Shown: positions 5,683 to 21,825 of the stretch, piece after piece | Numbering within the stretch: position 1 is the first letter of the stretch | How the letters are laid out: each line of letters begins with the position of its first letter | IMG/VR virus record: IMGVR_UViG_3300003314_000009 | Coordinates: 1-24,173 of that record | DNA from: a virus | Reading direction: 5' to 3' (one strand) | Length of the DNA stretch: 24,173 bases | Notes under the pieces: model-generated | Told to the model about the DNA's origin: nothing | Databases searched by the model: none | The model's input: only the letters and a program-made list of their open reading frames with translations | Translations under genes and position numbers: made by a program

Positions 5683-6821
5683 TATGCGTTAGCACCATAA
5701 CTGTTGAGCGCTTCCATATCTTCTTCAGTGAGGTTCCGTTTTTCGGGCTTTGCGTTGTCGATTACGTCGCGAGTATCTTCGTGTGACATCCCGAGTTCGA
5801 TCTCGGTCACGTACCCATTCTGCGCATCGACCTTATGGCGAACAACTTGTGCCATATATTCACCCTGAATCGTATCATCAAGGTTTGCGTCTTCGGGAAC
5901 GTAGACAGTATCGAACGGTGTAATTGTTTCATCACCAACGATTGTCACTTTCCCTTCTTTCAGGTCTTCGGCGAATTCCCCAATCTTCGAGTTCATGAAG
6001 GCCTCGACCTCTGCCTGGGTAGTCAGATTCTGGTCTTTAACTTTGAACTCCTTGATACGCTTATCTTCTTCATCTCCGTAGGTGATGCGCGCGGACGATT
6101 TGATCTGGTTGTGCGCGTACATAGTGGCTGCTTCCTGACCTTCTTCAGAGGTCGGTGCCCCACCAAACACAACAACTTGATTACCGGCCGCTTGTCCATC
6201 TCCGAGCGAAATCTCCTTGATTCGGTCGAGATAGTGCCAACCCACTGGCGGGTCAGGGCGCATCTTTACAACATTATGCTCGTCAACCCACCAATACGCG
6301 TCGAGCCGCTTGGCAATATCATCAAGAATATACGACAACGAGCGATTTTCGTATTCATGCTGCGTCGGACCATTGTCGCCCCGATATTGCCCAGTCGCGC
6401 GTTGAATATCGTTCGGGACACCATTCCGGTAGAGTAGCCGACGAGCCATATATGCGTTGTAGTTCAGGAAAACACCTGTCGAGACGTTCTCCTTAATTTG
6501 ATTCATTGTTCGTGTATGGTCATAGGCTTCAACCGTGTAGACGTGATTGTGATTTCGTGTTGCACGAACAGCCTCTCCGGTGAAGATCAGATTGCCGTTA
6601 ATACGAACTCGTGTTCTATCACCTTCATCGGGCACGTTTCCGTGTGTAAAAATGCCCTTGATCTTGGCATAGTTTGCATCCTTTGTCTTCGATCGCTCGA
6701 CTTCGATGCTCGTCGCTTCGAATGTCTCAGACTCGAAGTGTACTTCTGCGTCGATCGTTTCAACACTGATTGATTGACTACTACCCGACGATTTCGATGG
6801 TCGTATGTCATCTGTTGTCAT
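5682..6821 (-). CDS. Baseplate hub protein, P2 gpD / VgrG-N-like, 379 aa
   Basis: Forms the hub that joins the tube to the spike. An N-terminal beta domain (about 20-100) ends in the swapped-strand pattern DRTRVRINGNLIFTGEAV, as in late-control protein D. The middle has NRSLSYILDDIAKRLDAYWW (about 158-177), the conserved insertion domain. A third block (KEISLGDGQAAGNQVVVFGG) and the C-terminal beta region (DETITPFDTVYVPEDAN, AQVVRHKVDAQNGYVTEIELG) complete the fold. Length matches P2 gpD. It has a GGGTGA ribosome site and overlaps the spike gene by one base. No lysozyme or peptidase domain is fused to it. Confidence 0.9.
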   Translation of the reverse strand: MTTDDIRPSKSSGSSQSISVETIDAEVHFESETFEATSIEVERSKTKDANYAKIKGIFTHGNVPDEGDRTRVRINGNLIFTGEAVRATRNHNHVYTVEAYDHTRTMNQIKENVSTGVFLNYNAYMARRLLYRNGVPNDIQRATGQYRGDNGPTQHEYENRSLSYILDDIAKRLDAYWWVDEHNVVKMRPDPPVGWHYLDRIKEISLGDGQAAGNQVVVFGGAPTSEEGQEAATMYAHNQIKSSARITYGDEEDKRIKEFKVKDQNLTTQAEVEAFMNSKIGEFAEDLKEGKVTIVGDETITPFDTVYVPEDANLDDTIQGEYMAQVVRHKVDAQNGYVTEIELGMSHEDTRDVIDNAKPEKRNLTEEDMEALNSYGANA

Positions 6822-7290: not shown

Positions 7291-10200
7291 TCAGTATCCT
7301 CGCCGATTGCGCCGCCGACGACGCATTTCGCGATCGACATCACGAGCCGTTTCACGGGCTTCTTGTTTTGACATCCCCCGCTCCGCGTTAACAGTAATAT
7401 TATTGTTATTCACGACACTCGGCGGGCCGATCTGTGGGCTTCTCTTCGCAGTAACCTGGCCACGTTGTCCACGGCCGGAGCCAACGTTTCTACCTCGGCT
7501 ATTGAGATCTGGTATGGCATCGCCCGCCATATCTGCGCCCTTTTTACCCCAATCCATAGCCGTTCCAATGGGGGAATCTTCTATCGCTTTCTTCGTGTCT
7601 TCTATATTTTTCTGGAATTTCTCGATCTCCTTGTTGACGCGGGCAATTTCATCCGAGACAGCGTTTCTGAACCACTCACCGAGTACCTGGAACAAACGCT
7701 TCAGGGTCTCGAGGGGGTGTGTGAGCGCCCATAGTGTCTCGTCGAGGAAACTGAGAGTCGCTCTGACGCCAGAGATATCTGTAATAGCATCCTTGAAATC
7801 GTTCCACTTCGCCATGATCGCATCCCACTTCTGGATCAGAACACCAAGGACCGTGATGGTGAGAAGAAGTGGATTCACGATGAGGATGAGAGCACCTGCA
7901 AGCATCGCTGCATACTTCGCTCCCTTAAACAACAAGACGAAGAAATCTTCGAGGAATCCGAACTGTGAGAACCAATCTTTGAATTTTTGGAACGGCTTGA
8001 TGAATAACTTGGTAACTGCTTTACTGATAACACTACCCGCTGCTCGGACAGCCCATCCGAGTCCTTTAATAAGTATAGACGCTCCTTTGATGAGACCGGC
8101 CAGGCCTGTTAGGAAGTAACTGAGAAGGCCCGTTCCTTCCTTCGTTTCCTCGAGTTTTGTGACAAGCCCATCAAAGTCGGTAATAGCCTTATTGACAAAG
8201 GTTAGCACGCCACCTATGGCTTTCTTCGTCGCCTCGATCGGGTTCGTCAAAGCCCACAGAGCATCTTGGACCCACTCGACGCGATCGATGGCTTTCTGTA
8301 GATCACCAGTTAGGTAGCCGATCGCGAAGATAAGGCCCACAATCGCAGCAACGATCGCTGCGATTGCAGCCGGTACACTCCCAACTGCAACTACAAGTGC
8401 ACCGAAGGCAACACCGAGTGCCTCAGCCACAGAGCCAGAACTCAACATAAGTCCAACAACGGTCGAAAGTCCCGCCGCAACTGTGGCAAGACTTCCGGCG
8501 AGACTCGATCCCCAAGCCGCAATACGGGCGAGTACACTCGCAAGACCGCTCGCGGTAGTAGAAAATTCTGTGAGCCATCCAGTGAACCCAAGAGCACGAA
8601 CACGTCCGATCGATGTACCTAATCGTCCAAAGACGCCAGAGAGCCATTTAATGGCTCCACCCATCTTAAAGGCTCCAGCGAGAACTGTAGCAACGAAGGT
8701 AGTAAATGCAACATCACTTTCCCCGATTGAAGATGCCATCTCATCACTCACACCAGGGATAACACTGAGGAGGCCTTCGAACGCTGCTTTGGCCTCATCA
8801 AGGGCACCTGTCACGTGGAGGAGAGCAACAGCGATAGCAGTTAGAAGGAGCACCGTACGGGTAAGAGACGCAGCAATGCCCATACTCTTCAGGGCAACAA
8901 TGGCTGCTTTCGCTTCAGAGACAGCGAACGCAACCATGAAGAAAGCACCTGCGAGTTGAATCGTATCCTCATCAACTCCATTGAGCCAGTGCCCGAGTTG
9001 GGCTCCTGCTTCAATTAAAACTGCGAGGTGTGGAATGATAACTTCGCCAAGGATCACACCGAAGTCGGCCAGGGCCGACATAAGATCGAAGAGAGCCCCG
9101 AGAAGGTCGATAATGTCATCACCAATGGCTGCGCTGGCATCGGACCACGAGTCGATAATATCAGGAATCTTGCCGCCGACGACAAGGAATGCTTCCGTAA
9201 TAATCGGAAGCACTTGTGCAGTGGCGTCACGAAGGGCGTCGAGTGTCCGGGCCAATCCACCCGCCTGCGCGTTCGCCCCAAGGATAGAGCCTCCTATCTC
9301 GTTGAAGAATTCCTGTACTTCCGGGAGCGCCAGGATATCACGGAAGCCAACAGCAAGAGTTCTGACGACGTCGACAAGACCGCCAAGTACGTCCATGAAT
9401 GCTTCCATGACTGACGTACCGTCGGCTAACTGTCCATGGACTAACGGCTGCATAGCGTCCGCTATGGCCCGTCCGAGGGCTTTCATGATGATCATCATCC
9501 CCTCACTCGTTCCCTCGACGGAGGCAAACTGCTGGTCCAACGCCTGGGCCCAGCCGAGCATACCACCGGCCATGAGTCCAGCGAACGCACCACCGGCTCC
9601 ACCAACAGCAAGTGCCATGCCACCGAATGCCTTTGTCAGTGACCCCAGTACAATACCGAGTTCGGGAAGCGTCTTCACGAGGTCGGACAGTGAGACGTGT
9701 AGAATACCAAAGTCGGCGGAGAGTCGTGCCGATGAAAACCCGAGTTTGTCGAATGCATCATCCGTGTCATCTGAGGCTTCTCTGACGTTATTGAGACCAC
9801 CGTCTGTCGCCATTAAAGATGCATTGAGGGCCTGCACTTCTCCAGCAGACTCAATCGCTTCATCACCAACCTCGTCGATCTGATTGGCGAGACTCATCGC
9901 AGTCTTGTTAGAAATGACCTGATGAGTCGAAAGTTCGTTCAGGGATTTTGTAAGTGTCTTTACACTTATCACATCACCCTTATCAACGACACGATCGATT
10001 GCCTTTCCAAGGGCGTCGGCTTCAGCCGCATTCTCAGGCTCGATTGCCTCCTCGAGCGATTCACGGAACCCCAGAATATCAACGGCCGTTTCGGAGAATT
10101 CCCTCCCGAGATCCTCAATTCGTTCCTTACTTACCCCGACGATCTCGCCTTGTTTAGCGAGTTCGTAGCGTGTCCGTCGAATCGAATCACGCCAAGCCTC

Positions 10201-10437
10201 GGCGGACGAAACGTCGCCGGAGTCAATCATGTCGTCGATTGCTTGCTCGAGAACCTTCGCTTCCTGCGTCGTTGACTCAGGAATGGCTTTCTCGAGCGTA
10301 CTGCGATACTGCGCGGCAGAAGAACTCCCTTCCTGTAACTCATCAGAGACTTCGTCCAGAGATTCCTCTATCCGTTCGAGCGTGGGAGTTACCTTGTCCT
10401 TGAGGGTCGCAATACCCTCGATGCTAAAGTCTACCAT
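7291..10437 (-). CDS. Tape measure protein, 1048 aa
   Basis: Sets tail length and is ejected during infection. It has the largest frame here and follows the G/G-T chaperone pair by 3 nt. Residues 45-200 contain two similar helical units about 80 residues apart, beginning RSTLEKAI (45) and RESLEEAI (125), each with a GDV-containing segment. Very hydrophobic stretches lie near 255-297, 525-545, 640-710 and 840-870, as expected for a protein that meets the membrane. A second short repeat, WALTNPIEATKKA and WALTHPLETLKRL, is at about 728 and 903. The C-terminus is NNNNITVNAERGMSKQEARE followed by an Arg-rich end (DREMRRRRRNRRGY), a common pattern. At about 1.5 Angstrom per residue the length would suit a tail near 150 nm. 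No peptidase or muramidase motif was seen. Confidence 0.93.
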   Translation of the reverse strand: MVDFSIEGIATLKDKVTPTLERIEESLDEVSDELQEGSSSAAQYRSTLEKAIPESTTQEAKVLEQAIDDMIDSGDVSSAEAWRDSIRRTRYELAKQGEIVGVSKERIEDLGREFSETAVDILGFRESLEEAIEPENAAEADALGKAIDRVVDKGDVISVKTLTKSLNELSTHQVISNKTAMSLANQIDEVGDEAIESAGEVQALNASLMATDGGLNNVREASDDTDDAFDKLGFSSARLSADFGILHVSLSDLVKTLPELGIVLGSLTKAFGGMALAVGGAGGAFAGLMAGGMLGWAQALDQQFASVEGTSEGMMIIMKALGRAIADAMQPLVHGQLADGTSVMEAFMDVLGGLVDVVRTLAVGFRDILALPEVQEFFNEIGGSILGANAQAGGLARTLDALRDATAQVLPIITEAFLVVGGKIPDIIDSWSDASAAIGDDIIDLLGALFDLMSALADFGVILGEVIIPHLAVLIEAGAQLGHWLNGVDEDTIQLAGAFFMVAFAVSEAKAAIVALKSMGIAASLTRTVLLLTAIAVALLHVTGALDEAKAAFEGLLSVIPGVSDEMASSIGESDVAFTTFVATVLAGAFKMGGAIKWLSGVFGRLGTSIGRVRALGFTGWLTEFSTTASGLASVLARIAAWGSSLAGSLATVAAGLSTVVGLMLSSGSVAEALGVAFGALVVAVGSVPAAIAAIVAAIVGLIFAIGYLTGDLQKAIDRVEWVQDALWALTNPIEATKKAIGGVLTFVNKAITDFDGLVTKLEETKEGTGLLSYFLTGLAGLIKGASILIKGLGWAVRAAGSVISKAVTKLFIKPFQKFKDWFSQFGFLEDFFVLLFKGAKYAAMLAGALILIVNPLLLTITVLGVLIQKWDAIMAKWNDFKDAITDISGVRATLSFLDETLWALTHPLETLKRLFQVLGEWFRNAVSDEIARVNKEIEKFQKNIEDTKKAIEDSPIGTAMDWGKKGADMAGDAIPDLNSRGRNVGSGRGQRGQVTAKRSPQIGPPSVVNNNNITVNAERGMSKQEARETARDVDREMRRRRRNRRGY

Positions 10438-10440
10438 GTC

Positions 10441-11222
10441 TTATATTCCAGACGGAGTCCCGGCTCCACCGGGCATCATACCACCACCGCCGGACATCTG
10501 CTGGTGGAGTTGCTGTTTATTCTGTGCTTCTTCGTCAGCGCCTTCTCGGACTTTTGTTCCTTCGAGAAGCAACTGAAATTGAACGTCATCGAGATCTGCG
10601 ATACTGGCGTCTCGCAGATATTGCTCCATACCAGTTCCTTCGCACCTGGCACACTCAACGATCCGCCCGGAGGAAGGCTCGTGGGGATCTGCTACGGCAC
10701 CTGTACCGTTACACGGGACACAAGGTTTCTCGTCCTCGACCTGAAATGTGTACCCCTTTTCGTGGGCTACAATCAGTTCTTGGCCGAGTCGAGTCCGTGA
10801 AAATCCTTGACTTTCCCCGTACTTTCGAAGGACATTTCAATAACTTCTGCACCAAGCGGGAACAGAACCTCGAAATCGAGTTCGCTGACAATCTCCTCGA
10901 TGTGGATCGAGGTAAGATTCTCATGCTCAATGCTCTGCGAGCAAATATTCTCGAACGCCTGGATCGTGTCCCCATTGACGTTCGTCATCATATTCTCTTC
11001 ACGGGCTGCCTCCTCTGCTTCATCAGGATTGTCTGCTTCGGATAGTGTCTCGAGCATCTCATCCGGAAGGCGGTTAATTTCGTCAAGAAGCGCCTTCCGT
11101 TCAACAACTGTTAGTTCGACATCGATGGCTGCCCCATCTTCGTTCTCGAGAGTAATCTCTGTCGTTTTACTATCTCCACCGACGACCCGTTCATAGAAGT
11201 CCATTGCTTCAACTTGTTCCAT
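10441..11222 (-). CDS. Tail assembly chaperone G-T fusion made by probable -1 frameshift, about 260 aa
   Basis: The G frame (10773-11222) ends 335 nt before the tape measure. The -1 frame is open from a TGA near 10839 to the stop at 10441-10443. A slip at GGGGAAA (minus 10818-10812) joins residue ~137 of G to about 123 more residues. The extension begins SQGFSRTRLGQELIVAHEKG and contains CVPCNGTG and CARCEGTG, two CxxCxGxG motifs as in the DnaJ zinc finger. It ends in a Gln/Met/Gly-rich tail (HQQMSGGGGMMPGGAG). Lambda-type tails use the G and G-T ratio to load the tape measure, and the gene order here is the same. Without the slip, the first in-frame ATG (10629) would give only a 62-aa product lacking the zinc motifs. 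Confidence 0.7.
10773..11222 (-). CDS. Tail assembly chaperone G, 149 aa
   Basis: The unshifted product of the tail chaperone locus between tube and tape measure genes. It is acidic and helical with a beta start (KTTEITLENEDGAAIDVELT), then VVERKALLDEINRLPDEMLE and a late ELDFEVLFPLGAEVIEMSFE segment. The last 12 residues after the slip site are KDFHGLDSAKN-like and differ from the frameshifted form. Sequence alone is weak, but length, acidity, position and the -1 overlapping frame all match G-type chaperones. The gap to the tube gene is 47 nt, with only a partial ribosome site (GGGTG). Confidence 0.75.
   Translation of the reverse strand: MEQVEAMDFYERVVGGDSKTTEITLENEDGAAIDVELTVVERKALLDEINRLPDEMLETLSEADNPDEAEEAAREENMMTNVNGDTIQAFENICSQSIEHENLTSIHIEEIVSELDFEVLFPLGAEVIEMSFESTGKVKDFHGLDSAKN
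10812..10818 (-). other. Candidate -1 ribosomal slippery site GGGGAAA
   Basis: In the zero frame it reads ACG GGG AAA GTC. After a -1 slip the P-site tRNA re-pairs perfectly with GGG, and the A-site lysine tRNA keeps two of three pairs on GAA. It lies inside the roughly 65-nt window in which both frames are open (about 10836-10776). No other good slippery heptamer was seen there. I could not establish a stimulatory structure by eye. Confidence 0.55.
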
Positions 11223-11269: not shown

Positions 11270-11722
11270 TTACTCGCTAAAGGACATTTCCTCCGCAACG
11301 AAGTCATACGTCACGGAAACCGTATCATCGGACGGCATGTCCTTGGATCGCGAACTAACAAGACAGTTTTTGAACGTCGTTGTTCGACTACCCTCTCCCT
11401 TCGCATACTCCTTGACAACGATATTCGGACGCCGAGGTTCCATTTCCTCGTGGTAGTAGGCATTCCTACTACCTTCAGCCGTCCACTCAATGGCGTCTCG
11501 TAGCGCCTCATTTTCTCCCGCATGCTCGAAGGAGCCAGAGAAACGAAGGCCTGTCACAGCAATATCGGGCGTCAAACTGTCGTTCTGCTGGATCTCACTC
11601 GTTTCAACGTCTTTCGTGAACGAGACGTTCGTAACAGCAAACTCCTCGCCGCCGACCTTGAGAACAGCGTCCTGGCCGGTCTGCGTCGTATCACCAGATG
11701 TCGGATTGGTATTATTAGCCAT
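11270..11722 (-). CDS. Tail tube protein, 150 aa
   Basis: Inner tube subunit of the contractile tail. The sequence has the tube-like pattern QDAVLKVGGEEFAVTNVSFT, then DIAVTGLRFSGSFEHAGENE and NIVVKEYAKGEGSRTTTFKN, ending in VSVTYDFVAEEMSFSE. It directly follows the sheath gene, the standard sheath-tube order. Size fits tube proteins. A TTTGGTGAT ribosome site 5 nt before the ATG is shared with the sheath, decoration and scaffold genes, consistent with high expression. Assignment combines beta-pattern and position. Confidence 0.85.
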   Translation of the reverse strand: MANNTNPTSGDTTQTGQDAVLKVGGEEFAVTNVSFTKDVETSEIQQNDSLTPDIAVTGLRFSGSFEHAGENEALRDAIEWTAEGSRNAYYHEEMEPRRPNIVVKEYAKGEGSRTTTFKNCLVSSRSKDMPSDDTVSVTYDFVAEEMSFSE

Positions 11723-19509: not shown

Positions 19510-21825
19510 TTACTCCGTGAGAGGAGCAATTGAAGAACGACATCCGAAATGGAATGGAGGCGTCGCAGGCATGGGATCAAAGCCAGAAAACGGCGCTACA
19601 GACGTTTGTTCCATTAACTGCTCGGAGGCGTTCTGATCATCATCAAAGTGAATCTTGGCTGCTTCTTCGCTACCACATCCAGCAGCGTCTCGACAGAGGC
19701 GCGTCGTCTTGTGGGTACACGGATTGATGATCTTATACCCAGCAATGCGATCATCCCGCTCGTACTCCTCGAGTTTCGTCGCCTCGATTGCGTTCTGCAC
19801 TTGCATTCGAGAGATAATTCGCATCCGATCCTCGACCGTACTATCCGTAAACTCGTTCTCGATTCGTTCGCGAACATCCTCCCACTCCTCACCACGAGCA
19901 ATACCCTGGCGAACATGTGTCTCGATTTGAGCAGCCATATCATCGGCCGCCTTCTCGACGGAGCGCTCGTAGTTCTGGGAGATCGTCATGGCCTTGCGAC
20001 GGTGTCGCAGGCCATAGTCGGCGTCAATCTGTGGCTTGTGATTGTTCGACCCAAGCCGATTGAGTGTCTTCTGCGCAACACCCTCTACTTCTTCCATAGC
20101 GTTGGGCACAATCCGGGCATCCCCGAGTTCTGCCCGAATATTACTATCAATAATATTCCCAATATTGTCATCGCTCATCCCCGACCCGTCGAATCGACGT
20201 TCGAGTTCATCAAGCACAGCGTCGCGAGCGTCCGTAGCAGCGTCTGTGCCAAGTTCTTTGAGATTACCACGGTATTCATCCGTGTTGATCAGACGTGGAT
20301 CTGCGAGCGCCTCAGCGTCTCCTGAGCCGCTCTCAGGGCCGCCACCCGCACAACTAAATTCTGTCGAATTATCCTCGCCCATTCCATGAGACTCGAGGAA
20401 CTCATCATCCCAGATAGAGGCTTCGTTCTGCTCAGAACCTGCGTCGTCCGATCCGGAGCCACTGTCCTGTCCATCCTGATTCGGGCCAGGGTTTCGTTTG
20501 CCATCCTGCTGCGGGTTGCCGGTCGGAAGGTTATTCCCGTCACTACCGAAGCCACTCTCAGGACTGGCGTTGCCGCCCTGAGGCGAATCTGAAGTATAAC
20601 GGATGGTCTGGCCGTCCTCGGGCATGAAGTCTGGGCGATTCGGATCTCCAATGTGGAGTTGGACGCTGTCGGGGTTATCGAGTCCTCGTTCTTCGGCGAT
20701 CTCTTGCAGAAGCGGAGTGAACTCAGCCTCGAGTTCGCGTCGAGCCTCCCGGATCTGTCGGCGAAGGCGCTGCTGTTGGGCAGACGCCACAGGTTGTGCC
20801 ACATCGGTGGCATAGCCACCGAGCGCAAACTTCGGCATCGGCATTCCTGTAACGATGTGGTTAACGTCTTCCGTGAGAGCACCCTCAAGATCAGCCGTAT
20901 CGCCGGAGATAGTGTCGATGTCAACGTCGCCGGAAACCCCCTGCTTCATCGAGGGCTTGAAATTATCCATCTCATGGTGCTCCATGAAGTCCTCGACCTC
21001 GTCGAAGTCCCACGGATCATCCTCAGTCCCGAACTTGAACAGCCAGAACGGGTACGCCTTCGACGCGATCGCAGCGTCGTTATCCTGCAACTTCTTCTGT
21101 CGGGCCTCAACCCGAGGTGCAACGGCTTCGATCCGAGACGTCCCGAATACTTCACCGACGTCAGCGTCGCGAGTAAACTTGATCAGTTCGTCCGTCGTAA
21201 ACGGAATATCCGTCTCATGTCCTTCTTCGCGCCGACGACGCCACCGATTGAGGGACGTGTCATACTGCACGTACGCCGCGAACTCGTCGTCTTCTGTCTT
21301 TGGAACGTCGTCGCGAACTTCCGGCGGAAGATTTGCATCAGGCTCGATTAGCAGATTCGTACGCGGGTGCGTGTAAACCTCGAACTCTTCCGGGTTATGG
21401 AGGTAGAGAGCAACGACCTGATCCGAATTCCGACCACGGACCTTCTCGATGAGCGTCGTGCCACGAACTTCGCGCTGAACGATAACCTTCCGACAGAGAA
21501 GAGTGAAATCTTTATTCTTCTCACCCTCAATAATTGCACACTCACGAAGCCACTCAGTAAGTTCCTCAACTGTCTCCTCGTCTTCGGCCGTTACGTACCA
21601 GCCAGGTTCGACAACCTCACGACTGAACGCCGTGATCGGCTCACGAATCAGCGGCTCCGTTTCAAAGAGCCGCCAATACTGCTGCATCTCGTCCTTGGGT
21701 GGATCATTCCGATCGACACCCCCATGCTTGACTTCTGTTGATGCTTTCCGATCGCCCTTCGGTGAAGGGTCGTCCGGAGCAAACAATTCCTCGACCGTAT
21801 CCTTTAGATCATCATAGAGTCCCAT
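19510..21825 (-). CDS. Portal protein fused to a MuF-type head morphogenesis domain, 771 aa
   Basis: Residues about 1-400 are the portal: EMQQYWRLFETEPLIREPIT, TTLIEKVRGRNSDQVVALYL, IPFTTDELIKFTRDADVGEV and GTSRIEAVAPRVEARQKKLQ. Then come VNHIVTGMPMPKFALGGYAT and the long helix VASAQQQRLRRQIREARREL. A disordered Gly/Asn/Gln/Asp-rich linker (about 410-470) follows. The last 250 residues match SPP1 gp7 / Mu gpF minor head proteins, ending in a cysteine-rich site (C703, C711, C717, H759, C762; PPFHFGCRSSIAPLTE) that likely binds zinc. Single-protein portal-MuF fusions occur in several tailed viruses. It starts 29 nt after the terminase gene. Confidence 0.92.
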   Translation of the reverse strand: MGLYDDLKDTVEELFAPDDPSPKGDRKASTEVKHGGVDRNDPPKDEMQQYWRLFETEPLIREPITAFSREVVEPGWYVTAEDEETVEELTEWLRECAIIEGEKNKDFTLLCRKVIVQREVRGTTLIEKVRGRNSDQVVALYLHNPEEFEVYTHPRTNLLIEPDANLPPEVRDDVPKTEDDEFAAYVQYDTSLNRWRRRREEGHETDIPFTTDELIKFTRDADVGEVFGTSRIEAVAPRVEARQKKLQDNDAAIASKAYPFWLFKFGTEDDPWDFDEVEDFMEHHEMDNFKPSMKQGVSGDVDIDTISGDTADLEGALTEDVNHIVTGMPMPKFALGGYATDVAQPVASAQQQRLRRQIREARRELEAEFTPLLQEIAEERGLDNPDSVQLHIGDPNRPDFMPEDGQTIRYTSDSPQGGNASPESGFGSDGNNLPTGNPQQDGKRNPGPNQDGQDSGSGSDDAGSEQNEASIWDDEFLESHGMGEDNSTEFSCAGGGPESGSGDAEALADPRLINTDEYRGNLKELGTDAATDARDAVLDELERRFDGSGMSDDNIGNIIDSNIRAELGDARIVPNAMEEVEGVAQKTLNRLGSNNHKPQIDADYGLRHRRKAMTISQNYERSVEKAADDMAAQIETHVRQGIARGEEWEDVRERIENEFTDSTVEDRMRIISRMQVQNAIEATKLEEYERDDRIAGYKIINPCTHKTTRLCRDAAGCGSEEAAKIHFDDDQNASEQLMEQTSVAPFSGFDPMPATPPFHFGCRSSIAPLTE

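Follow-up and report, generated by a model that had tools for sequence, protein, structure and literature searches.

Genes G and T of the viral DNA analyzed here (IMG/VR record IMGVR_UViG_3300003314_000009, positions 1 to 24,173, the whole of which is called the window below) appear to encode the paired tail assembly chaperones of an HGTV-1-related myovirus. The long form of the chaperone appears to be made by a conserved -1 slip on a UUUU-C site. With the zinc module that one lineage carries in the T part, the locus appears to be a lineage-specific form of a gene pair well known from phages. We consider this reading (fusion of G and T by a -1 slip at U_UUU_C, with a clade-specific zinc knuckle tip on the T hairpin) very likely to be correct. 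Frameshifted G-T chaperones are already known from haloviruses; what appears to be new here is the zinc variant in T, and the putative slip is non-canonical. Our search of the literature found no report of zinc in T, which is no proof that none exists.

Gene order and relatives of the G/T pair

As in other G/GT chaperones, the pair sits between the tail tube gene and the tape measure gene (Table 1). With T as a single query, no relatives were found among phages or viral contigs. A tblastn search with G retrieved one isolate, HGTV-1 (Halomagnusviridae), and scanning viral contigs with an alignment of G gave 24 loci, thus opening up a family where the T query alone had failed. Once identical and near-identical pairs had been dropped, 19 distinct G/T pairs remained (the window, HGTV-1, and 17 IMG/VR contigs). 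All 19 keep the order G, open -1 T frame, tape measure gene (the last wherever the contig extends that far), and the tube and sheath genes are found upstream of G in every locus whose neighborhood was compared. No relatives were detected in plasmids or in two scans of genome contigs; hence, no proviral copies were found.

Table 1. Features of the tail chaperone locus (window coordinates)
Feature	Coordinates	Strand	Remarks
Tape measure protein gene	7291..10437	-	1048 aa; phrog_167 tail length tape measure, E 9e-12
T extension, -1 frame	10441..10800	-	From TCA (10800) to TAA (10443-10441); fusion ~260 aa
Second CxxCxGxG knuckle	10630..10653	-	CARCEGTG
First CxxCxGxG knuckle	10699..10722	-	CVPCNGTG
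Possible 3' stimulatory stem	10729..10793	-	Starts 6 nt after slip codon; weak, unconserved
Gene G, tail assembly chaperone core	10773..11222	-	149 aa; homologs include HGTV-1 gene 19; AlphaFold model matches
Putative -1 slip site TTTTC	10799..10803	-	Sole shift-prone sequence common to all 19 homologs; zero frame GAT TTT CAC (10805-10797)
GGGGAAA	10812..10818	-	Slip site proposed in the earlier note; unconserved, unlikely slip site
Tail tube gene	11270..11722	-	phrog_12452 tail tube, E 1e-9; same position in every neighborhood-compared locus
Tail sheath gene	13076-11754	-	

The predicted structure of G (AlphaFold, mean pLDDT 69.5) was aligned to 995 chains, and the sole listed entries with Z of at least 2 were 3fgx (Z 6.4), the HK97 tail assembly chaperone 2ob9 (Z 5.4 over 98 residues), YqbN 3klu (Z 4.4), and 5ir0 (Z 3.6). 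A Foldseek search gave a weak match (E 0.55). The similarity of the model to HK97 and YqbN weakly favors a chaperone role, the Z values being modest by themselves.

Elsewhere in the window, an ORF of 771 aa (19510-21825, minus strand) is an apparent portal/minor-head fusion. Residues 31-390 hold a portal domain (phrog_9232), and a Mu gpF-like minor head domain that scores slightly below the Pfam cut-off occupies the C-terminal part (residues 633-766).

The T frame is open, under selection, and lacks a start

In the window, the open -1 frame runs from 10836 to the T stop codon, and its overlap with G spans 10836-10773. The coordinates bear out what the earlier note had seen, a -1 frame that stays open after G and ends 3 nt before the tape measure gene (ATG at 10437). 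This openness extends to the family, since the T frame is stop-free in the 19 distinct homologs, whereas every other frame of the same DNA has 1 to 10 stops. The dN/dS of T is about 0.1 in close pairs (0.08-0.13) which, together with the open frame, indicates that T is selected as a protein.

None of the five homologs with zinc motifs (the zinc clade, described below) has an ATG, GTG, or TTG in T before the first knuckle. For the window, L014, and L010, the stretch downstream of the slip is free of these codons up to codon 58, 105, and 111, respectively; in L004 and L011, a GTG (codon 54) falls between the knuckles. F-S-R/E, conserved in T, starts within the G overlap, ahead of the G stop. As in known G/GT pairs, then, the T frame overlaps G and is open and conserved with no start of its own; together with the position of F-S-R/E, this means that T is in all likelihood produced solely as a G-T fusion. 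Comparison of the homologs thus points to frameshifting as by far the likeliest route to T, which is in practice reachable solely by a -1 shift, as the earlier note had proposed. A conserved T start, which that note named as grounds for abandoning the idea, was sought in the homologs and not found.

Synthesis of T as a separate protein, from a non-standard start codon or by re-initiation after the G stop, seems very unlikely to us. HGTV-1 gene 20 is annotated as a CDS of its own, starting from a TTG 9 nt after the G stop, and the window has CTG ATT at the matching place. However, this TTG is not conserved (besides HGTV-1, it is present in L024 and L025 alone, and in 0 of 5 zinc clade members), the F-S-R/E residues precede the G stop, and related haloviruses are annotated with a fusion.

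A putative slip site shared by all homologs

A codon-by-codon scan of the permitted overlap in each homolog identified the TTTTC site given in Table 1, whose retention is in part imposed by the residues F-S encoded in the T frame. The context is mostly GAT TTT CAC, with GAT TTT followed by CAG, CAA, or CGC, and GGT TTT CAG, as variants. In HGTV-1 and L015, a T-frame stop lies directly before GGA-TTT, so that the frame opens just 3 nt ahead of T_TTT_C; therefore, no upstream sequence can serve in these two. The site is not a canonical dual-slip heptamer (X_XXY_YYZ), since the family has G/A_GAT_TTT and then T_TTT_C; L025 alone carries a canonical one, G_GGT_TTT, at the shared slip position (6423-6429). 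Whether tRNA-Phe slips while in the P site or while in the A site, the protein would be identical, and the two are thus indistinguishable here.

The earlier note had placed the slip at GGGGAAA and had taken the zinc module for a DnaJ-like grip on the hydrophobic tape measure, a combination that we regard as most improbable. GGGGAAA does lie within the overlap and is in frame for slippage in the P site, and a stable stem is found further downstream. On the other hand, it is present in the window alone and absent from the 18 other distinct homologs, and any site upstream of GGA-TTTT is impossible in HGTV-1 and L015. It is not an X_XXY_YYZ heptamer either: GGG in the P site re-pairs fully, but AAA in the A site must re-pair with GAA. 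The position of GGGGAAA in the overlap was therefore read correctly, but not its role as the slip site. As for the stem, the window segment 10793-10729 folds with -28.1 kcal/mol (z -3.9), and stable folds were also obtained for L014 (z -3.1) and L028 (z -3.5), while the other seven homologs tested lie between +0.7 and -0.8; a conserved 3' stem was not found among the tested homologs.

Putative zinc knuckles at the tip of the T hairpin

The two CxxCxGxG motifs reported in the earlier note are indeed present in T, and translation of the window in six frames yields no others. When the residues of T were shuffled 200,000 times, no shuffle contained two such motifs. The T model, of moderate confidence (mean pLDDT 65.7), consists of a helix, a beta-hairpin, a long helix, and a loose tail (H6-16, E22-28, knuckles, E60-66, H74-105), and both alignment and model place the C4 module at the tip of the hairpin, between the two helices. 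The four cysteines and four motif glycines, whose conservation the earlier note had set as a test, are invariant in five distinct sequences (the window, L010, L004, L011, and L014), in which the segment between the knuckles varies in length, but are missing from 14 of the 19, including the isolate HGTV-1. In these 14, the hairpin is short and cysteine-free (a bare FSVTEEDGTKRQAY in L026). T domains with and without zinc motifs are homologous (hhalign profile comparison, 97.3%, E 1.8e-11). In the G tree, the five zinc-bearing sequences form one side of a branch with support 100/100; hence, one gain or one loss suffices.

CxxCxGxG knuckles are also found in the DnaJ Cys-rich domain, BSD2/ZnJ2, Anti-TRAP, and phage Q. 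DnaJ has four motifs and two zinc sites, whereas T has two motifs on the tip of a hairpin, and no match to a J domain was found in G or T. The scores of T fall below the gathering threshold both for the DnaJ central domain PF00684 (22.2 bits versus 32.7) and for Anti-TRAP PF15777 (18.9 bits versus 32). Against zinc modules of known structure, T gave weak matches throughout (Foldseek E at least 0.27), with DnaJA2, BSD2, the DnaJ Cys-rich domain, Anti-TRAP, and lambda Q as the best look-alikes. Matches of T to PHROG "Q-like antitermination" families cover the zinc motif alone and were dropped. Judged by its motifs, the T module is a DnaJ-style pair of zinc knuckles with one possible zinc site, and not a DnaJ domain. 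The earlier designation of a DnaJ-type zinc finger is accordingly kept for the knuckle type and given up for membership in DnaJ.

A grip on the tape measure has in its favor that T, in local shape, comes closest to DnaJA2, BSD2, and the DnaJ Cys-rich domain. However, T carries two of the four DnaJ motifs, and most relatives, HGTV-1 among them, have the same T domain without the zinc module, which leaves a substrate-gripping role unsupported. In addition, ZnJ2, a DnaJ-type zinc protein that lacks a J domain, retained its holding activity in a mutant without cysteines (PMC5818400), so that the knuckles need not be the grip. Stabilization of the hairpin or a lineage-specific contact is likelier. 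That the zinc loop gained, beyond stabilization, a clade-specific contact (with the tube, the tape measure, nucleic acid, or a host factor) is a tentative idea that fits within the frameshift model. The C4G4 set is invariant although the inter-knuckle segment varies, and the similar knuckle modules of Anti-TRAP and phage Q proteins take part in contacts; still, five sequences are too few for mapping a contact surface.

Proposed mechanism

Under the frameshift model, most ribosomes would finish G. A minority would slip back one base (UUU to UUU) when tRNA-Phe is paired with the UUU of U_UUU_C, and would read on in the -1 frame to yield a fusion of G and T some 260 aa long (...GKVKDF-SRTRLGQEL...). 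The lambda G part binds the tape measure, and the tail-tube protein is the partner of the T part (PMC5009743). By analogy, G would coat the tape measure and the T part would recruit tail-tube subunits. If these roles hold, the zinc tip would be on the tube-binding part, a further argument against a grip on the tape measure. In the zinc clade, the two knuckles at the hairpin tip probably bind one zinc ion and may stiffen or shape the hairpin.

Comparison with known systems

Frameshifting in G-T tail chaperones is general (Xu, Hendrix and Duda 2004, as cited in PMC5009743). Like lambda gpG/gpGT, the window has a small gene pair immediately ahead of the tape measure gene, with T solely in the shifted frame and a -1 shift; unlike lambda, the virus is archaeal, the putative slip U_UUU_C is not a canonical heptamer, and T is predicted to be zinc-tipped. 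Among haloviruses, -1 frameshifted chaperones are described in HVTV-1 and HCTV-1/2/5, and a very likely +1 shift in HSTV-2 (PMC5009743). A +1 shift at TTT-CGC/UUU-CGC has been proposed for the HF1 group (PMC7230728), and G_GGA_AAT is the site in Hardycor1 (PMC7911831).

HATV-2, HRTV-25, and the HF1/HF2 group are, like the window virus, haloarchaeal myoviruses with an annotated or proposed frameshifted chaperone between tube and tape measure (annotated as -1 in HATV-2 and -2 in HRTV-25). The HATV-2 slip is A_AAA_AAC, different from U_UUU_C. HF2 (L039, 9277-9282) and HRTV-25 (L038, 9241-9246) do have TTT-C at the G/T junction, but there the +1 frame is needed, whereas T_TTT_C in the window and its relatives needs -1. 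No CxxC was found in the T parts of HATV-2, HRTV-25, or HF2, and their profile comparison with T is weak (14% probability), so homology is not claimed.

If UUU-C is read as the slip in all of these, a U before UUU would give -1 (U_UUU_C) and a non-U would give +1 (G_UUU_CGC in HF2, A_UUU_CGU in HRTV-25). It is possible, though rather doubtful, that haloarchaeal myoviruses make the chaperone fusion by such a single-codon slip, with the preceding base setting the direction, and that in one clade the T hairpin became a zinc knuckle. From the window and its relatives by themselves, archaeal frameshifting, of which there are few worked examples, would gain a compact conserved site, U_UUU_C, that has neither a shared canonical heptamer nor a shared 3' stem and is suited to a reporter test in Haloferax. 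A zinc-bearing form of T would also be added, and its natural zinc-free relatives are ready-made controls for the role of T in tail assembly.

The closest isolate is HGTV-1 (NC_021328), whose genes 19 and 20 are in the same order with the same GGATTTTCACG overlap, its G being 45% identical to that of the window. It differs in that its T hairpin has no cysteines and that the record annotates two separate ORFs. HGTV-1 gene 20 (L003, 6456-6662) is more plausibly the T portion of a fusion to gene 19 by a -1 shift.
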